Positions 14,956 to 47,413 of a DNA stretch of 64,000 bases are shown here, one piece after another. A model generated the notes under the pieces. It worked only from the letters and a program-made list of their open reading frames with translations, searched no databases and was not told where the DNA came from. The DNA is from Allobosea sp. GTDB taxonomy: Bacteria > Pseudomonadota > Alphaproteobacteria > Rhizobiales > Beijerinckiaceae. Location: assembly GCF_030695125.1 (NCBI RefSeq), contig NZ_JAUYTP010000032.1, forward strand, positions 62,001 through 126,000. The letters are read 5' to 3'. The position numbers and the translations under genes are program-made. Numbering within the stretch: position 1 is the first letter of the stretch; every line of letters begins with the position of its first letter.

Positions 14956-15528
14956 TCAGGCGCGGGCCACCTTGCCGCGATCGCGCCGGCGGTCGGAAGC
15001 CGGCTGGTAGGCGATGCGGGAGTGGTAGGTGCAATAGGGCATGCCGGTCTGCGAACGGCCGCCGCAGAAGCGGAACTCCGCCGTCGTCGGGTCGCCCATC
15101 GGCCAGCGGCACATATACTCGCGCAGCTCCATGATCGTGACGCGCTCGGAGAACGGGATCACCACATCCTCGGACGGTGCGGGGGCGGGCTCGACCTCGG
15201 CCTGCGCCTCGGGGGCATACTGCGCCGCAAGCGCATTGGCGCCGCGGGTCATGCCGCCCTGCACGGTAGCCTGGCCGCCGGTCATCGGGTGGCTGGGCGA
15301 ACGGGTCGGCGTCTTTCGCGGCGCGGCACTGCGCGGCGCGCTGGCTGCGGCGGGGTTCTTGGCGCGGCCCGACAGGCCGAGCCGATGCACCTTCCCGATG
15401 ACGGCGTTGCGGGTCACGCTGCCGAGTTCGGCGGCGATCTGGCTGGCGCTCAGGCCGTCGCTCCAGAGCTTCTTCAAAAGCTCGACGCGCTCCTCAGTCC
15501 ATGCTCCGGCTTCGTTCATCGGGCTCAC
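14956..15528 (-). CDS. gcrA: Cell-cycle regulator GcrA
   Basis: GcrA is a sigma-70 cofactor of alphaproteobacteria that binds CcrM-methylated GANTC sites and raises transcription of cell-cycle and division genes. The 190-residue protein shows the diagnostic N-terminal helix-turn-helix (WTEERVELLKKLWSDGLSAS and VTRNAVIGKVHRLGL), a Pro/Ala-rich middle, and the C-terminal sigma-binding region with CRWPMGDP, FRFCGG and MPYCTYHSR. Two in-frame ATGs (15528 and 15519) are possible; other family members often begin close to the WT..RVE block. It is divergent from argD, and the interval between them carries a dense cluster of GANTC sites, suggesting self-regulation through DNA methylation. Confidence 0.96.
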   Translation of the reverse strand: MSPMNEAGAWTEERVELLKKLWSDGLSASQIAAELGSVTRNAVIGKVHRLGLSGRAKNPAAASAPRSAAPRKTPTRSPSHPMTGGQATVQGGMTRGANALAAQYAPEAQAEVEPAPAPSEDVVIPFSERVTIMELREYMCRWPMGDPTTAEFRFCGGRSQTGMPYCTYHSRIAYQPASDRRRDRGKVARA

Positions 15529-15581: not shown

Positions 15582-15774
15582 GAATCCGATACCGCGGCGC
15601 CCGTCGCAGGACGGGGGCCGTTACAGCCGAAACTGACAGGTACAGGGGTCGCCGCACGAGATGTCGTATCTGACGAGGGCGACCCTACAAGATGCGATGA
15701 CTCGGCCACAAGAGTCGCCGAATCGGAAAACGCTTTTTCCCCAGACGATTCGTCAATCGCCCGTCAAGCGAATC
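15582..15774. promoter_or_regulatory. Cluster of six GANTC (CcrM) sites upstream of gcrA
   Basis: GANTC occurs at 15582, 15699, 15712, 15720, 15747 and 15770; the last five fall within 76 bp. At this GC content about one site per 300 bp would be expected. An inverted repeat GGAAAA-CGCT-TTTTCC (15725-15740) sits in the middle, and two TTGACG hexamers face gcrA. Methylation-dependent control of gcrA, possibly by GcrA itself, is inferred. Confidence 0.7.
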
Positions 15775-15829: not shown

Positions 15830-15858
15830 TTGACAGCAGCCATGCCCTTTTGCATAGT
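15830..15858 (+). promoter_or_regulatory. Sigma-70 type promoter reading toward argD
   Basis: TTGACA at 15830-15835 and CATAGT at 15853-15858 with a 17-bp spacer. A start near 15865 would give a leader of about 225 nt before the argD start. Confidence 0.65.
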
Positions 15859-15864
15859 TCCAAC

Positions 15865-16090
15865 CAGAGACCGCCGCCCTTTCGGGCGGCGCTTATGTTT
15901 TGCGGATCAGGATCTTTCAATCCATGCGGATGACGGCGCGACGAGAGGTCGGAACCGGACTGCGACGATAACGTCGTCGCCGGGTCGTAATCGGCTGCAC
16001 AGCCTCAGCGTCTGTGCCGGCCAGCCCGGGCCACCGTTTTCAGTCCAGCGCCCATCTGTTCCCCATTGCCCGTTGCAAGGATCGCATCCC
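15865..16090 (+). other. Long structured argD leader
   Basis: Just after the predicted start, GCCGCCC-TTTC-GGGCGGC (15873-15890) forms a strong hairpin followed by GCTTATGTTTT. Further on, GCGACGA...TCGTCGC near 15960-15980 forms a second one. A 12-codon frame ([12 protein letters not shown], from 15896) has no arginine codons. It may be an attenuator or simply a stable leader; I recognise no known riboswitch. Confidence 0.4.
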
Positions 16091-17311
16091 ATGGCTTCCG
16101 CCCCTGTTTCCGCATCGCCATCCCTCCTGCTGCCGACCTATGCCCGCGCCCCCGTTGCTTTCGAGCGTGGCGAGGGCGCCTGGTCGATCACGGCTGACGG
16201 CACGCGCTATCTCGATTTCGGCGCCGGCATCGCCGTCAATGCGCTCGGTCATGCGCATCCGCATCTGGTCGCCGCGCTGACGGCGCAGGCCGGCAAGATC
16301 TGGCACACCTCCAACCTCTACACGATGCCCGAGGGCGAGAGGCTGGCGCGCCGGCTCTGCGATGCGACCTTCGCGCAGCGCGTCTTCTTCACCAATTCGG
16401 GCGCCGAGGCGAACGAGGCGGCCATCAAGATGGCGCGGAAGTACCATGCCGCGAAGGGCCATCCCGAGCGCTTCCGCATCATCACCTTCGAGGGCGCCTT
16501 CCATGGCCGCACGCTGGCGACCATCGCGGCCGGCGGCCAGCAGAAATACATCGACGGCTTCGGCCCCAAGGTCGACGGCTTCGACCAGGTCCCCTTCGGC
16601 GACCATGACGCGCTGAAGGCGGCGATCACCAGCGAAACCGCCGGCATCATGATCGAGCCGATCCAGGGCGAGGGCGGCTTGCGCTCGGTGCCGCCGCAAT
16701 GCCTGCGCGGCCTGCGCGAATTGTGCGACGAGCACGGGCTGATGCTGATCTTCGACGAGATCCAGACCGGCGTCGGCCGCACCGGCAAGTTCTTCGCTCA
16801 TGAACTTTCGGGCGTGACGCCCGACATCATGTCGGTCGCCAAGGGCATTGGCGGCGGTTTCCCGATGGGTGCCTGCCTCGCCACGGAAGAAGCCGCCTCG
16901 GGCATGACGCTGGGCACCCACGGCACCACCTTCGGCGGCAATCCGCTGGCCATGGCGGTCGGCAATGCGGTTCTGGACGTCATCCTGGCGCCGGGCTTCA
17001 TCGACCATGTCGCCCAGATCGCCCTGCGGCTGAAGCAGTCGCTGGCCGAGCTCAAGGACAAGCACCCGCAGGTCATCGCCGAGATCCGCGGCGAGGGGCT
17101 GATGCTCGGCCTCAAGCTCCACACGCTCAACACCGATTTCGTCGCCGAGGCTCGCGCCGCCGGGCTGCTCGTCGTCGCGGCCGGCGACAATGTCGTGCGC
17201 CTGCTGCCACCGCTGATCATCGGCGAGGCCGAGGTCGCCGAGGCGGTCGCCCGTCTCGACCGCGCGGCCTCCGCCACCGAAGCCGCGCTGAAGCGCCCCG
17301 CGGCGGAATAG
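16091..17311 (+). CDS. argD: Acetylornithine aminotransferase
   Basis: PLP-dependent class III aminotransferase that makes N-acetylornithine in arginine synthesis, and often serves as succinyldiaminopimelate aminotransferase in lysine synthesis. The 406-residue length is typical. Visible: [57 protein letters not shown] and the PLP-lysine motif [14 protein letters not shown] with the lysine at about residue 251. The frame is open upstream to 15830, but the ATG at 16091 is preceded by AAGGA and fits the family. It leads the argD-argF-hslO cluster found in many alphaproteobacteria. Confidence 0.96.
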
Positions 17312-29683: not shown

Positions 29684-30369
29684 GTCCGGCCTGCCTCTTG
29701 TGTCGCTGCTGCCGCCGCGGCCCGTGCCGCAACGACGAAATCCGTGATCCGATCGATGTCCTTGACGCCGGGTGCGCTTTCCACGCCCGACGAGACGTCG
29801 ACGCCCGATGGCCTTGTGACGGTGATGGCCTGCGCCACATTCGCCGGATCGAGCCCGCCCGATAGCATGAAGCGCAAAGCGGGGTCGAGCGCCGCCAGGA
29901 TCGACCAGTCGAACGGTCTGCCATGCCCGCCCGGATAGGCGGCGTCTTTCGGCGCCTTGGCGTCGAGCAGGATGCGGTCGGCGACCTCCTGATAGGACGC
30001 GATCGCGGCGAGATCATGCTGCGTGGCGATGCCCAACGCCTTCATGACGCACAAGCCGGTCGCATCCTTGATGGCGCCGACCCGCTCAGGCGTTTCCTGC
30101 CCATGCAGTTGCAGCCAGTCGGGCCGCAGCCATTCGACGAGGTGGCGGGCCTCGTCGGGCTCGTGATCGACGATCAGCGCCACGATCTCGGCGCGGCCGC
30201 GCGCCATCGCGGCGAGTTCGAGGGCCTGGATGTCCGAGACGAAGCGCGGGCTCCTAGGGTGAAACACGAGGCCGATCATCTCGACGCCGGCGGTCAGGGC
30301 AGCATCCAGCGTCTGCGGCGTCGACAGACCGCAGATCTTGATCGCGAAGGGAGGCACGGGACGTTCCAT
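29680..30369 (-). CDS. trpF: Phosphoribosylanthranilate isomerase
   Basis: Converts N-(5-phosphoribosyl)anthranilate to the carboxyphenylamino-deoxyribulose phosphate in tryptophan synthesis. The 229-residue TIM barrel shows the catalytic cysteine motif [39 protein letters not shown], a phosphate-binding FDW block ([12 protein letters not shown]), [10 protein letters not shown] and the C-terminal [15 protein letters not shown]. It is slightly longer than E. coli-type domains because of a short C-terminal Ala-rich tail. It overlaps trpB by four bases and is divergent from the TAXI receptor gene. Confidence 0.96.
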
Positions 30370-30412
30370 CGCACGGCTCTAGCATGAAGGTGAACGGCGC
30401 CGCACTTGCGAC

Positions 30413-31786
30413 ATGATGACAGACGAAGCAATGCTCGACGAGCCCGGACGGTGGGTCGAGGCGCGGCAGGGCGGGCAGATACGGGTGTTCGGCAAGGGAC
30501 GGCGCGGTTTCACGATCCTGGCGGGGCTGCTGGCGATGGCCGGTTTGACGGCCGCGATCTTCTACGTCGCCAATCAGCCGCGCACGCTCAAACTGGCCGT
30601 CGGCCCGCTCGGTTCCGAGGATGCCCGGATGGCGGCAGGCTTCGTGCAGGGGCTCAACCGAGAGAAATCCCAGATTCGCCTCAGGCTCATCCTGACGGAA
30701 GGCTCGGAGGAGAGCGCCCGCAAGGTCGATGGCGGCGACGCCGATCTCGCCATCGTGCGGCCTGATATCGCGCTGCCGGCCAAGGCCGATACGGCGCTGA
30801 TCACGCGTCGGTCCTTTCCCTTCCTGATCACTGACAAGGACAGCGCGATCGGCCGCATTGCCGATCTGCGCGGTCGCAGGGTCGGGGTGGTGCGCAATCC
30901 CGCCGGCAATATCGTGCTGTTGAAGCTCGTGCTGGCGCAGTACGAGGTCGATCCCACCGAGGTGACGATCATCGGCCTGACGCCCGACGAGATCGTCCCC
31001 GCGGCCAGGGAACGGCGCGTCGACGCCTTCTTTTCCGTCAATGCGGTGGGGGCACGCGCCAATGGCGACGGCACCGCCCGGCTGCGCTCGGCCTGGGGCG
31101 AGGACCCCGTCCTGATCCCGATCCGCGAGGCCGACGCGCTGGCGGCGCGGGTGCGCGCCATCGAGACCGGCGAGATCGTCAGGGGCGCGCTCGGGGGCGA
31201 TCCGCCGCGCCCGTCGGAGAACCTGCCGACGATCGCGATCACCTCGCGGCTGGTCGCCTCGCAGGATCTCGACGAGGACGTCGTCGGAAACCTCGTCAGC
31301 GCGCTTCTGGCGCTGCGGGTGACGCTGGCCGCAGAACTGCCGCAGATCCAGGGGCTCGAGGCGCCCGCGACCGACAAGGACGCGCCGCTGCCCGTCCATC
31401 CCGGTGCCGCCGCCTTCATCGACGGCGAACAGAAGACGTTCTTCGAGCGCTATGGCGACTGGTTCTATCTCGGCGTCATGGCGCTGTCGCTGTTTGGCAC
31501 CGGCGCGGCCGGCCTGCTCGGCCGCGAAAGCGCCGCAAGACGGCGGCAGGCGATGCTGGGGCTCGACCGCCTGCTGGCGCTCCTGCCGCAGATCCGCAGC
31601 ACGACCGATCTGGACAGGCTCGACCGCTACCGCAGCGAAGCCGATGCGATCCTGCTCGAGGTTCTCGGCGATTTCGGCCAGGGCAACCTCGATTCCTCGG
31701 CCATTGCGGCCTACCGCCTGGTCTTCGATCAGGTTAGCCGCGCGGTGGTCGAGGCCAAGATCAGGGCCGCAGCCATCCAGATCTGA
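30413..31786 (+). CDS. TAXI-family TRAP transporter solute-binding subunit
   Basis: A 457-residue protein with an N-terminal membrane anchor (about 33-53), a type II periplasmic-binding domain (TLKLAVGPLGSEDARMAAGF, then LILTEGSEESARKVDGGDADLAIVRPD), a second hydrophobic helix near residues 347-365 (GDWFYLGVMALSLFGTGAAG) and a C-terminal, probably cytosolic helical tail. TAXI proteins are solute receptors of TRAP transporters, but no TRAP membrane subunit gene is nearby, and the two-helix form is often found alone. It may therefore sense rather than transport. Substrate unknown. The gene is divergent from trpF with only 43 bp between starts. Confidence 0.8.
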   Translation: MMTDEAMLDEPGRWVEARQGGQIRVFGKGRRGFTILAGLLAMAGLTAAIFYVANQPRTLKLAVGPLGSEDARMAAGFVQGLNREKSQIRLRLILTEGSEESARKVDGGDADLAIVRPDIALPAKADTALITRRSFPFLITDKDSAIGRIADLRGRRVGVVRNPAGNIVLLKLVLAQYEVDPTEVTIIGLTPDEIVPAARERRVDAFFSVNAVGARANGDGTARLRSAWGEDPVLIPIREADALAARVRAIETGEIVRGALGGDPPRPSENLPTIAITSRLVASQDLDEDVVGNLVSALLALRVTLAAELPQIQGLEAPATDKDAPLPVHPGAAAFIDGEQKTFFERYGDWFYLGVMALSLFGTGAAGLLGRESAARRRQAMLGLDRLLALLPQIRSTTDLDRLDRYRSEADAILLEVLGDFGQGNLDSSAIAAYRLVFDQVSRAVVEAKIRAAAIQI

Positions 31787-46704: not shown

Positions 46705-47413
46705 GTCGTTCCGGGCCTGCTCGTGGCCGTTGCGCCACAGTGAAAACATGATCGAAAACGATCGTCCCGAAGCGCGATTCCGCAATCTTTCCGACCCTTT
46801 ACGGGCTTGACTCCCCCAGGGCTTTCGGGGCGGAAAAACGCTCTCCGGAGCCCCCGCGACCGCGCAGCAAAAGCTCATATTTTTCAGGCCATTAGCGGGC
46901 AAAGGATTCGACCGCGGGGAATCCCGGCGACTCTGGGGCACCGCGCCTCGCGGCGCGAAAAAAAAGATTCGCGCCCTCCCCGGCATCGCCTTCATGAAGA
47001 AAATCTTAAGTCCCACAACCAATTGCGAGCCGGCTGCCGGTGGGTCACGACGGGCCTTCCGGGGGGTGACTCTCGGGTAGCGAACAATGGGCGTATTGCA
47101 GGCCTTCGAGAGCGCCCTGTAAGGTCTTTTTCAACGCCGGTTGGACAGCGATGGACGCCCGGCCTTTCCACAGGATTATCGGTTCTTGGCTCGCAACCCG
47201 GGGGTTGGAGGATGACGCTCTTTATCTTTTTCTAGCGTGAGATGAAGTGCGGCTTCGTCCTGCGACGAGCCTTTCCAGCGTAATCGATCAGAACGGACCG
47301 GAAAACCCGCGGGCCATCATCCGCAGGAACCCCTGTCCTATGACCGGTCAAAACAGCACCGGTTCGGCAGCCTCTCGGAGGCGGCCGGATCTGGCGCGCG
47401 AAGTGTCGAAGAA
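46705..47413. promoter_or_regulatory. rpsT-dnaA intergenic region with seven GANTC sites
   Basis: A 709-bp gap with no gene. GANTC occurs at 46776, 46809, 46905, 46919, 46929, 46966 and 47068, against about two or three expected in the whole gap. A/T-rich tracts such as GCGCGAAAAAAAAGATTCGC are present. There is no perfect DnaA box; the nearest is CTTTCCACA at 47164-47172 (7 of 9). It must carry the dnaA promoter and may be part of a replication origin, but a box cluster is lacking. Confidence 0.65.

Follow-up and report, generated by a model that had tools for sequence, protein, structure and literature searches.

Does methylation control the gene for GcrA? In the 64,000-nucleotide stretch of DNA from Allobosea sp. 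that we analyzed (the window, always meant as the whole stretch), GANTC sites crowd the interval between gcrA and the divergent argD. A sequence-only reading of the window had proposed a loop in which hemimethylation after passage of the replication fork tunes gcrA, with argD possibly drawn into the cell-cycle program. Here, we consider how exceptional and how conserved these sites are, which promoter they would act on, and whether GcrA itself has a part in the response.

GANTC sites cluster upstream of gcrA

The gcrA-argD interval does hold six GANTC sites, and the five from 15699 to 15770 lie within 76 bp (Table 1). As the sequence-only reading had stated, the cluster adjoins gcrA on its upstream side, the gene being on the minus strand with its last coordinate at 15519. 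The assumed background of about one GANTC per 300 bp was too high: we counted 1357 sites in 1,018,000 bases, or one per 750 bp, across the window and 48 other stretches of the same genome (a 1.02-Mb sample, 20% of the 5.13-Mb genome). Within the window, GANTC is scarce, with 92 sites found versus 329 expected from dinucleotide shuffles.

Table 1. Features of the gcrA-argD region, in window coordinates.
Feature	Coordinates	Strand	Basis or remark
gcrA coding sequence, 187 aa	14956..15519	-	PF07750, 189.6 bits; matches solved-structure chains named GcrA
GANTC in predicted gcrA 5' leader	15582..15586	-	site near start codon conserved
Leader element TCTCGTGCGGCGA	15649..15661	-	may pair with an EcpR1-like small RNA
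Predicted gcrA start, about -155 from ATG	15674..15675	-	7 to 8 bases past -10
Predicted -10, TAGGGT	15682..15687	-	conserved core
GAGTC in -35/-10 spacer	15699..15703	-	near-fixed across loci
Predicted -35, TTGTGG	15706..15711	-	conserved core
GACTC touching -35	15712..15716	-	GANTC conserved in genus
GATTC 5' of -35	15720..15724	-	fits YGAKTCG; kept 8 bp from abutting site in genus
TGGGGAAAAA element holding TGGGGA	15734..15743	-	TGGGGA is the complement of DnaA W-box TCCCCA; putative role
GANTC fitting YGAKTCG on plus strand	15747..15751		site listing and motif match
Outermost GANTC of cluster	15770..15774		site listing; first base 60 bp before argD -35
argD-side promoter, TTGACA-17-CATAGT	15830..15858	+	sequence pattern; argD start predicted
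GC-rich hairpin, then CTTATGTTTT	15872..15891	+	just past predicted argD-side start
argD coding sequence	16091..17311	+	PF00202; NF002325 above cut-off

The gcrA cluster is an outlier within the counted 20% of the genome. No other place in the 1.02-Mb sample has 5 sites within 76 or 150 bp, or 6 within 193 bp; weaker clusters there reach 4 sites in 76 bp (three times) or 5 in 193 bp (twice); 7 sites in 300 bp are found at dnaA and not at gcrA. Under uniform scatter, the whole genome would be expected to contain 0.02 groups of 5 sites in 76 bp and 0.05 groups of 6 in 193 bp. All six sites fall within 255 bp of the gcrA ATG, against the background of one per 750 bp, an excess like that at the gcrA promoter (PG) of A. 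tumefaciens. The observation is stronger than the sequence-only reading had put it.

That reading also presupposed CcrM, and the genome encodes an orthologue (523 bits against CcrMI from the Protein Data Bank, residues 46 to 396; 612 bits against the NCBIfam CcrM model, which is below its cut-off of 830). CcrM is convincing in 60 of the 61 genomes searched, the window's own included; G034 has a partial match, and G030 has just a 41-residue piece at a contig end. Relatives without CcrM, sought as a control for the loss of GANTC, did not occur among these 61 genomes.

A second GcrA-like gene is present in the same genome (G000, contig C45, about 30348 to 30812; PF07750, 96.8 bits), and several relatives also have weaker second GcrA matches. 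Among viral contigs, 132 stretches encode a relative of the GcrA-like query, of which 80 (L123 to L202) were kept.

A predicted gcrA promoter within the cluster

Read on the gcrA strand, the cluster contains a core composed of GACTC, TTGNNN, 2 bases, GANTC, 10 or 11 bases, and TANNNT. This corresponds to a -35 and a -10 element spaced by 17 or 18 bases, with 18 in the window versus 17 in 51 of 80 named loci (best 80 of 586). The pattern TTGN5GANTC-N9..12-TANNNT has a single occurrence in 1.02 Mb of the genome, namely at the gcrA promoter, and the core score is reached by 1 of 400 random 300-bp pieces of the same genome. We predict that this core is a sigma70-type gcrA promoter of the window's organism. 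In Sinorhizobium saheli (L229), a count of 7 to 8 bases past the -10 leads to position -123/-122 relative to the ATG as the start, which agrees with the S. meliloti gcrA start reported at -122 (PMC4414408); on this basis, we place the window's start near 15675. Relative to position 15675, the centers of the six GANTC sites lie at about -97, -74, -47, -39, -26, and +91.

Two other elements accompany the predicted promoter. The leader element TCTCGTGCGGCGA is conserved in the genus, with similar elements in other families. In S. meliloti, a site for EcpR1, with the loop UCCGCCGCAUCU, begins 13 nt past the transcription start site of gcrA (PMC4414408). The window is like the S. meliloti gcrA leader (PMC4414408, PMC3616915) in having an element about 13 nt past the start and a divergent argD, but differs in the position of the start (-122 versus about -155 predicted) and in that TTAA-N7-TTA near the start is missing from its genus (0/37). 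The 12-base EcpR1 loop occurs 3 times in the window's own genome, versus 6 times for a reversed control, and none of the 3 occurrences folds, by eye, like the described RNA. Farther upstream, the TGGGGA element is related to the DnaA W-box, for which we used the consensus given in PMC4285127. Its form GGGGAAAA is found in 34 of 37 genus, 12 of 24 order, and all 80 named loci (best 80 of 586), in the last of which it stands 38 to 39 bp upstream of the core (28 bp in one). Two copies of TGGGGAAAA were counted in 624 kb of the genome, one being that at 15734 to 15743; DnaA is a putative binder of this element.

The core and its GANTC sites are conserved

We compared 61 gcrA loci, of which 37 belong to the genus (the window's among them) and 24 represent other families of the order, one locus per family, together with 80 named loci, mostly from Rhizobiaceae and their relatives, which are the best 80 of 586 found with one of the 61 locus proteins. 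The 141 loci may contain one species twice. At a fixed score, the core is present in 128 of them: 37/37 genus, 11/24 order, and 80/80 named loci (best 80 of 586). The loci below this score are 13 of the 24 from other families of the order.

Both GANTC sites of the core are widely kept. The spacer position has one in 37/37 genus loci, 11/11 order loci with the core, and 77/80 named loci, and the position abutting the -35 in 37/37, 8/11, and 75/80, respectively (named loci being the best 80 of 586). A further site stands 8 bp before the abutting one in 34 of 37 genus loci, and the next upstream site in the named loci is mostly 9, 18, or 19 bp away (66/80; best 80 of 586). A leader GANTC at -80 to -25 from the ATG is found in 36/37 genus, 15/24 order, and 77/80 named loci (best 80 of 586); it reads GATTC in 21 of the 22 loci printed, the other (G010) having no site there.

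The 300 bp upstream of gcrA contain 3 to 7 GANTC sites in every one of the 37 genus loci (mean 5.3, against 0.19 for an equal length in the rest of the pieces) and 0 to 6 in the 24 other families (mean 2.75 versus 0.29 elsewhere); for 250 bp in the named loci (best 80 of 586), the range is 0 to 7, with one locus at zero, and the mean 4.86 versus 0.24 elsewhere. Per 280 bp, the genus has 5.16 sites upstream versus 0.22 in the gene and downstream, and seven control pentamers of similar composition rise less than threefold upstream in the same loci.

A sample of the class (76 genomes with a GcrA match) provided 29 loci besides our own. One of these, from another genus of the window's family, has 7 GANTC sites. 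Of the 28 loci from outside the order, 12 lack GANTC in the 300 bp, and three or more sites are present in 3. The core score is nevertheless attained within 400 bp by 4 of the 28, among them G163, whose spacer has GAGTC. By these comparisons, then, the cluster belongs mainly to the order, though not exclusively.

To count substitutions, we used a quick LG+G4 tree built from 128 GcrA proteins; of the 141 loci (which include the best 80 of 586), the 13 that fall short of the core score enter neither the tree nor the spacer counts. Across the spacer pentamer, G changes 1 time, A 3, N 9, T 2, and C 1, a conservation among the 128 that is partly selected for because the core score rewards GANTC letters. 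The two bases before the pentamer change 17 and 21 times and the ten after it 10 to 31 times, so that the two nearest on each side range from 17 to 31; the TTG of the -35 has zero changes. In the abutting pentamer, the letters change 5, 5, 4, 7, and 1 times, the N being no freer than the rest. The spacer pattern, with a freer N between near-fixed G, A, T, and C, is what we read as selection on a methylatable site.

Proposed methylation control and its alternatives

A precedent for this arrangement is found in A. tumefaciens, where gcrA is preceded by six GANTC sites within 250 bp, a density well above that of the chromosome (PMC11514494). According to the same report, methylation lowers the activity of the promoter, in E. 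coli as well, a host described as being without alphaproteobacterial regulators, and gcrA is up 2.8-fold upon CcrM depletion; its authors propose that gcrA is activated via hemimethylation after fork passage. The window is like A. tumefaciens PG in its six upstream GANTC sites and in its core, which is common to the window, the named Agrobacterium loci (L240 and L246), and other Rhizobiaceae loci. There are also differences: The effect was seen with reporters there and is deduced from sequence here; A. tumefaciens is reported to have two origins, with gcrA about 0.43 Mb from ori1; and the start could not be predicted there, whereas for the window we propose a core and a start. Since the window shares the anatomy of A. 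tumefaciens PG, we take the same mechanism to be the most likely, and we consider there to be a good chance that the cluster is a methylation-sensitive gcrA promoter switched by fork passage.

The mechanism would run as follows. The predicted -35 is framed by two GANTC sites, one touching it and the other within the spacer, and further sites follow a short way upstream. When CcrM has methylated both strands, sigma70 RNA polymerase would use the gcrA promoter poorly; passage of the fork would leave the sites hemimethylated and raise gcrA transcription, a rise that would end late in the cycle, once CcrM has remethylated the sites. This supposes that methylation has an effect of the same sign in the window's organism as in A. 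tumefaciens, that hemimethylation would be enough to release the promoter, and that methyl groups near the -35 may hinder the polymerase directly. Caulobacter provides related cases. Its transcription starts that have GANTC in the -10/-35 interval reach their peak at 40 to 60 min of the cycle (PMC4287350), and ctrA P1, which is activated on hemimethylation, likewise has GANTC near its core promoter (PMC4287350, PMC8116508); unlike the GcrA-activated ctrA P1, however, the window has clustered sites and a spacer site without the full GcrA motif. As counter-evidence, cell-cycle-regulated promoters of E. meliloti are reported not to be enriched in GANTC overall (PMC8725594). By analogy with A. tumefaciens, methylation control of gcrA is well supported, the release probably coming from hemimethylation behind the fork. 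In the loop of the sequence-only reading, it is this tuning that is supported, by the outlier density in the fifth of the genome counted, the CcrM orthologue, the conserved predicted promoter, and the A. tumefaciens precedent; the action of GcrA on its own gene is not.

That action, in which GcrA with sigma70 would read the methylated sites of its own promoter and activate or repress gcrA, is unlikely in our judgment. GcrA of Caulobacter prefers methylated GANTC (PMC3667746), and its activation motif is given as YGAKTCG or YGAKTCK (cited in PMC7987155). Two of the six window sites, 15720 and 15747, fit YGAKTCG, but these fully fitting sites sit 5' of the -35. At the spacer site, the shorter YGAKTC is found in 32/37 genus, 5/11 order, and 18/80 named loci (best 80 of 586), but YGAKTCK in just 1 of 128 loci (including the best 80 of 586) and in 0 of 37 from the genus. 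In addition, the methylation effect of A. tumefaciens persists in E. coli and so needs no GcrA (PMC11514494). The misfit of the spacer motif and the E. coli result both count against a GcrA self-loop. Note that the motif's absence is not decisive, because GcrA of B. subvibrioides is reported to show no extended motif (PMC7987155).

We find it improbable that the sites instead serve a DNA-binding protein, whether MucR, DnaA, NtrX, or CtrA, that covers them, keeps them unmethylated, and has GANTC as part of its own site. MucR proteins do bind some unmethylated GANTC in Caulobacter (PMC7987155), NtrX is reported to bind the S. meliloti gcrA promoter, and a CtrA motif overlaps the S. meliloti gcrA start (PMC3616915). 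However, a CtrA-like TTAA-N7-TTA (or TAA-N7-TTAA) near the start is absent from all 37 genus loci and present in 2/24 order and 32/80 named loci (best 80 of 586), and both the freer N in the spacer and the shifting distance of the upstream site argue for GANTC itself. Least probable is that the pentamers merely happen to belong to a conserved core promoter in which methylation plays no role, as the abutting GACTC, which touches the -35 with an N no freer than its other letters, and the invariant GATTC of the printed leader sites might suggest, because the near-fixed letters of the spacer site stand among fast-changing neighbors and a methylation effect on the gcrA promoter has been published for A. 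tumefaciens (PMC11514494).

The argD side of the interval

In 34/37 genus, 21/24 order, and 80/80 named loci (best 80 of 586), gcrA has a divergent argD homologue no more than 1.5 kb away, an old arrangement that has already been noted in S. meliloti (PMC3616915). The sequence-only reading placed a strong argD promoter between 15582 and 15774, but the promoter-like site at 15830 to 15858 falls outside these limits. Every genus locus that has an argD homologue (34) also has this -35/-10 pattern. In none of them does GANTC occur between the argD -35 and a point 60 bp past its first base; in the 80 bp preceding the -35, 26 of the 34 have GANTC (nearest at 17 to 60 bp) and 8 do not. With the limit of 50 bp upstream of a start used in PMC4287350, the window has no GANTC before the predicted argD start, the nearest being the outermost site at 15770. 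The case for argD being drawn into the cell-cycle program is weak, its promoter being without GANTC and the nearest site 60 bp 5' of the -35.

In 20 of 20 sequences printed (of 34 from the genus), a hairpin stands directly past the predicted argD-side start, and 16 of the 20 have the CTTATGTTTT tail. An Rfam search with the hairpin and T-rich tail at 15872 to 15901 gave no match at the gathering score. The element may be a very short RNA, a 5' stabilizer, or an attenuator. Because it comes right past the start, the tie of the argD-side promoter to argD is only putative.

Distance to the origin and a second cluster at dnaA

As an origin marker, we used hemE, which we take to be a neighbor of the replication origin; it was sought in 10 genus genomes (our own and nine with few contigs) and in G055, from another family. 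The distance from gcrA to hemE is 59 to 178 kb in 9 of the 10 genus genomes, about 2.6 Mb in the remaining one (G012), and 0.85 Mb in G055. GC skew has a sign change near 25 to 30 kb of contig C3, in agreement with the placement of hemE; this change is weak, so that hemE is a putative origin marker. Closeness of gcrA to the origin is not general, since Rhizobiales gcrA is reported to be mostly midway between ori and ter (PMC8116508).

The window has a second GANTC cluster, with 7 sites in 297 bp (46776 to 47072) between rpsT and dnaA, both identified by eye from their sequences. The distance from this cluster to gcrA is 32 kb, and both lie to one side of the likely origin. Among 30 loci from the 37 genomes, the rpsT-dnaA gap holds 3 to 8 GANTC sites in 28, several of them at conserved places (in 2 of the 30, rpsT was not found and the count is 0). 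A conserved TTGACTC upstream of dnaA looks like a -35 overlapping GANTC. CcrM methylation has been described as activating dnaA in Caulobacter. More tentatively, we suggest that in much of the Hyphomicrobiales the gcrA promoter could be a GcrA-independent methylation sensor, in which marks at the -35 exclude sigma70 polymerase until the fork opens it, with dnaA responding oppositely, such that one fork would turn dnaA down and gcrA up.

Most of this is known biology, here traced across an order. The only report of a GANTC cluster at gcrA that we met in the literature, as far as its text was available, is that on A. tumefaciens (PMC11514494); in PMC2877005, sites upstream of cell-cycle genes were counted, with no conclusion on methylation control in the available text. 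A prior description of an order-wide conserved gcrA core was not found in a full-text search that covered few subscription journals and no more than passages of most papers. Our findings extend the single Agrobacterium report to a promoter core common to several families of the order, and the letters named here (GANTC abutting the -35 and GANTC in the spacer) make a clean promoter test possible. The loci outside the order that have three or more sites (3/28) or reach the core score (4/28) help to ask where the circuit arose.

Small groups of GANTC were also observed elsewhere in the same genome. Three sites lie in 21 bp (L072, 4500 to 4520, contig C71) directly 5' of a recA-like reading frame, and four lie in 57 bp (L328, 1161 to 1217, contig C77) in the gap between a pair of leftward reading frames, of which one resembles an ABC-transporter ATPase.
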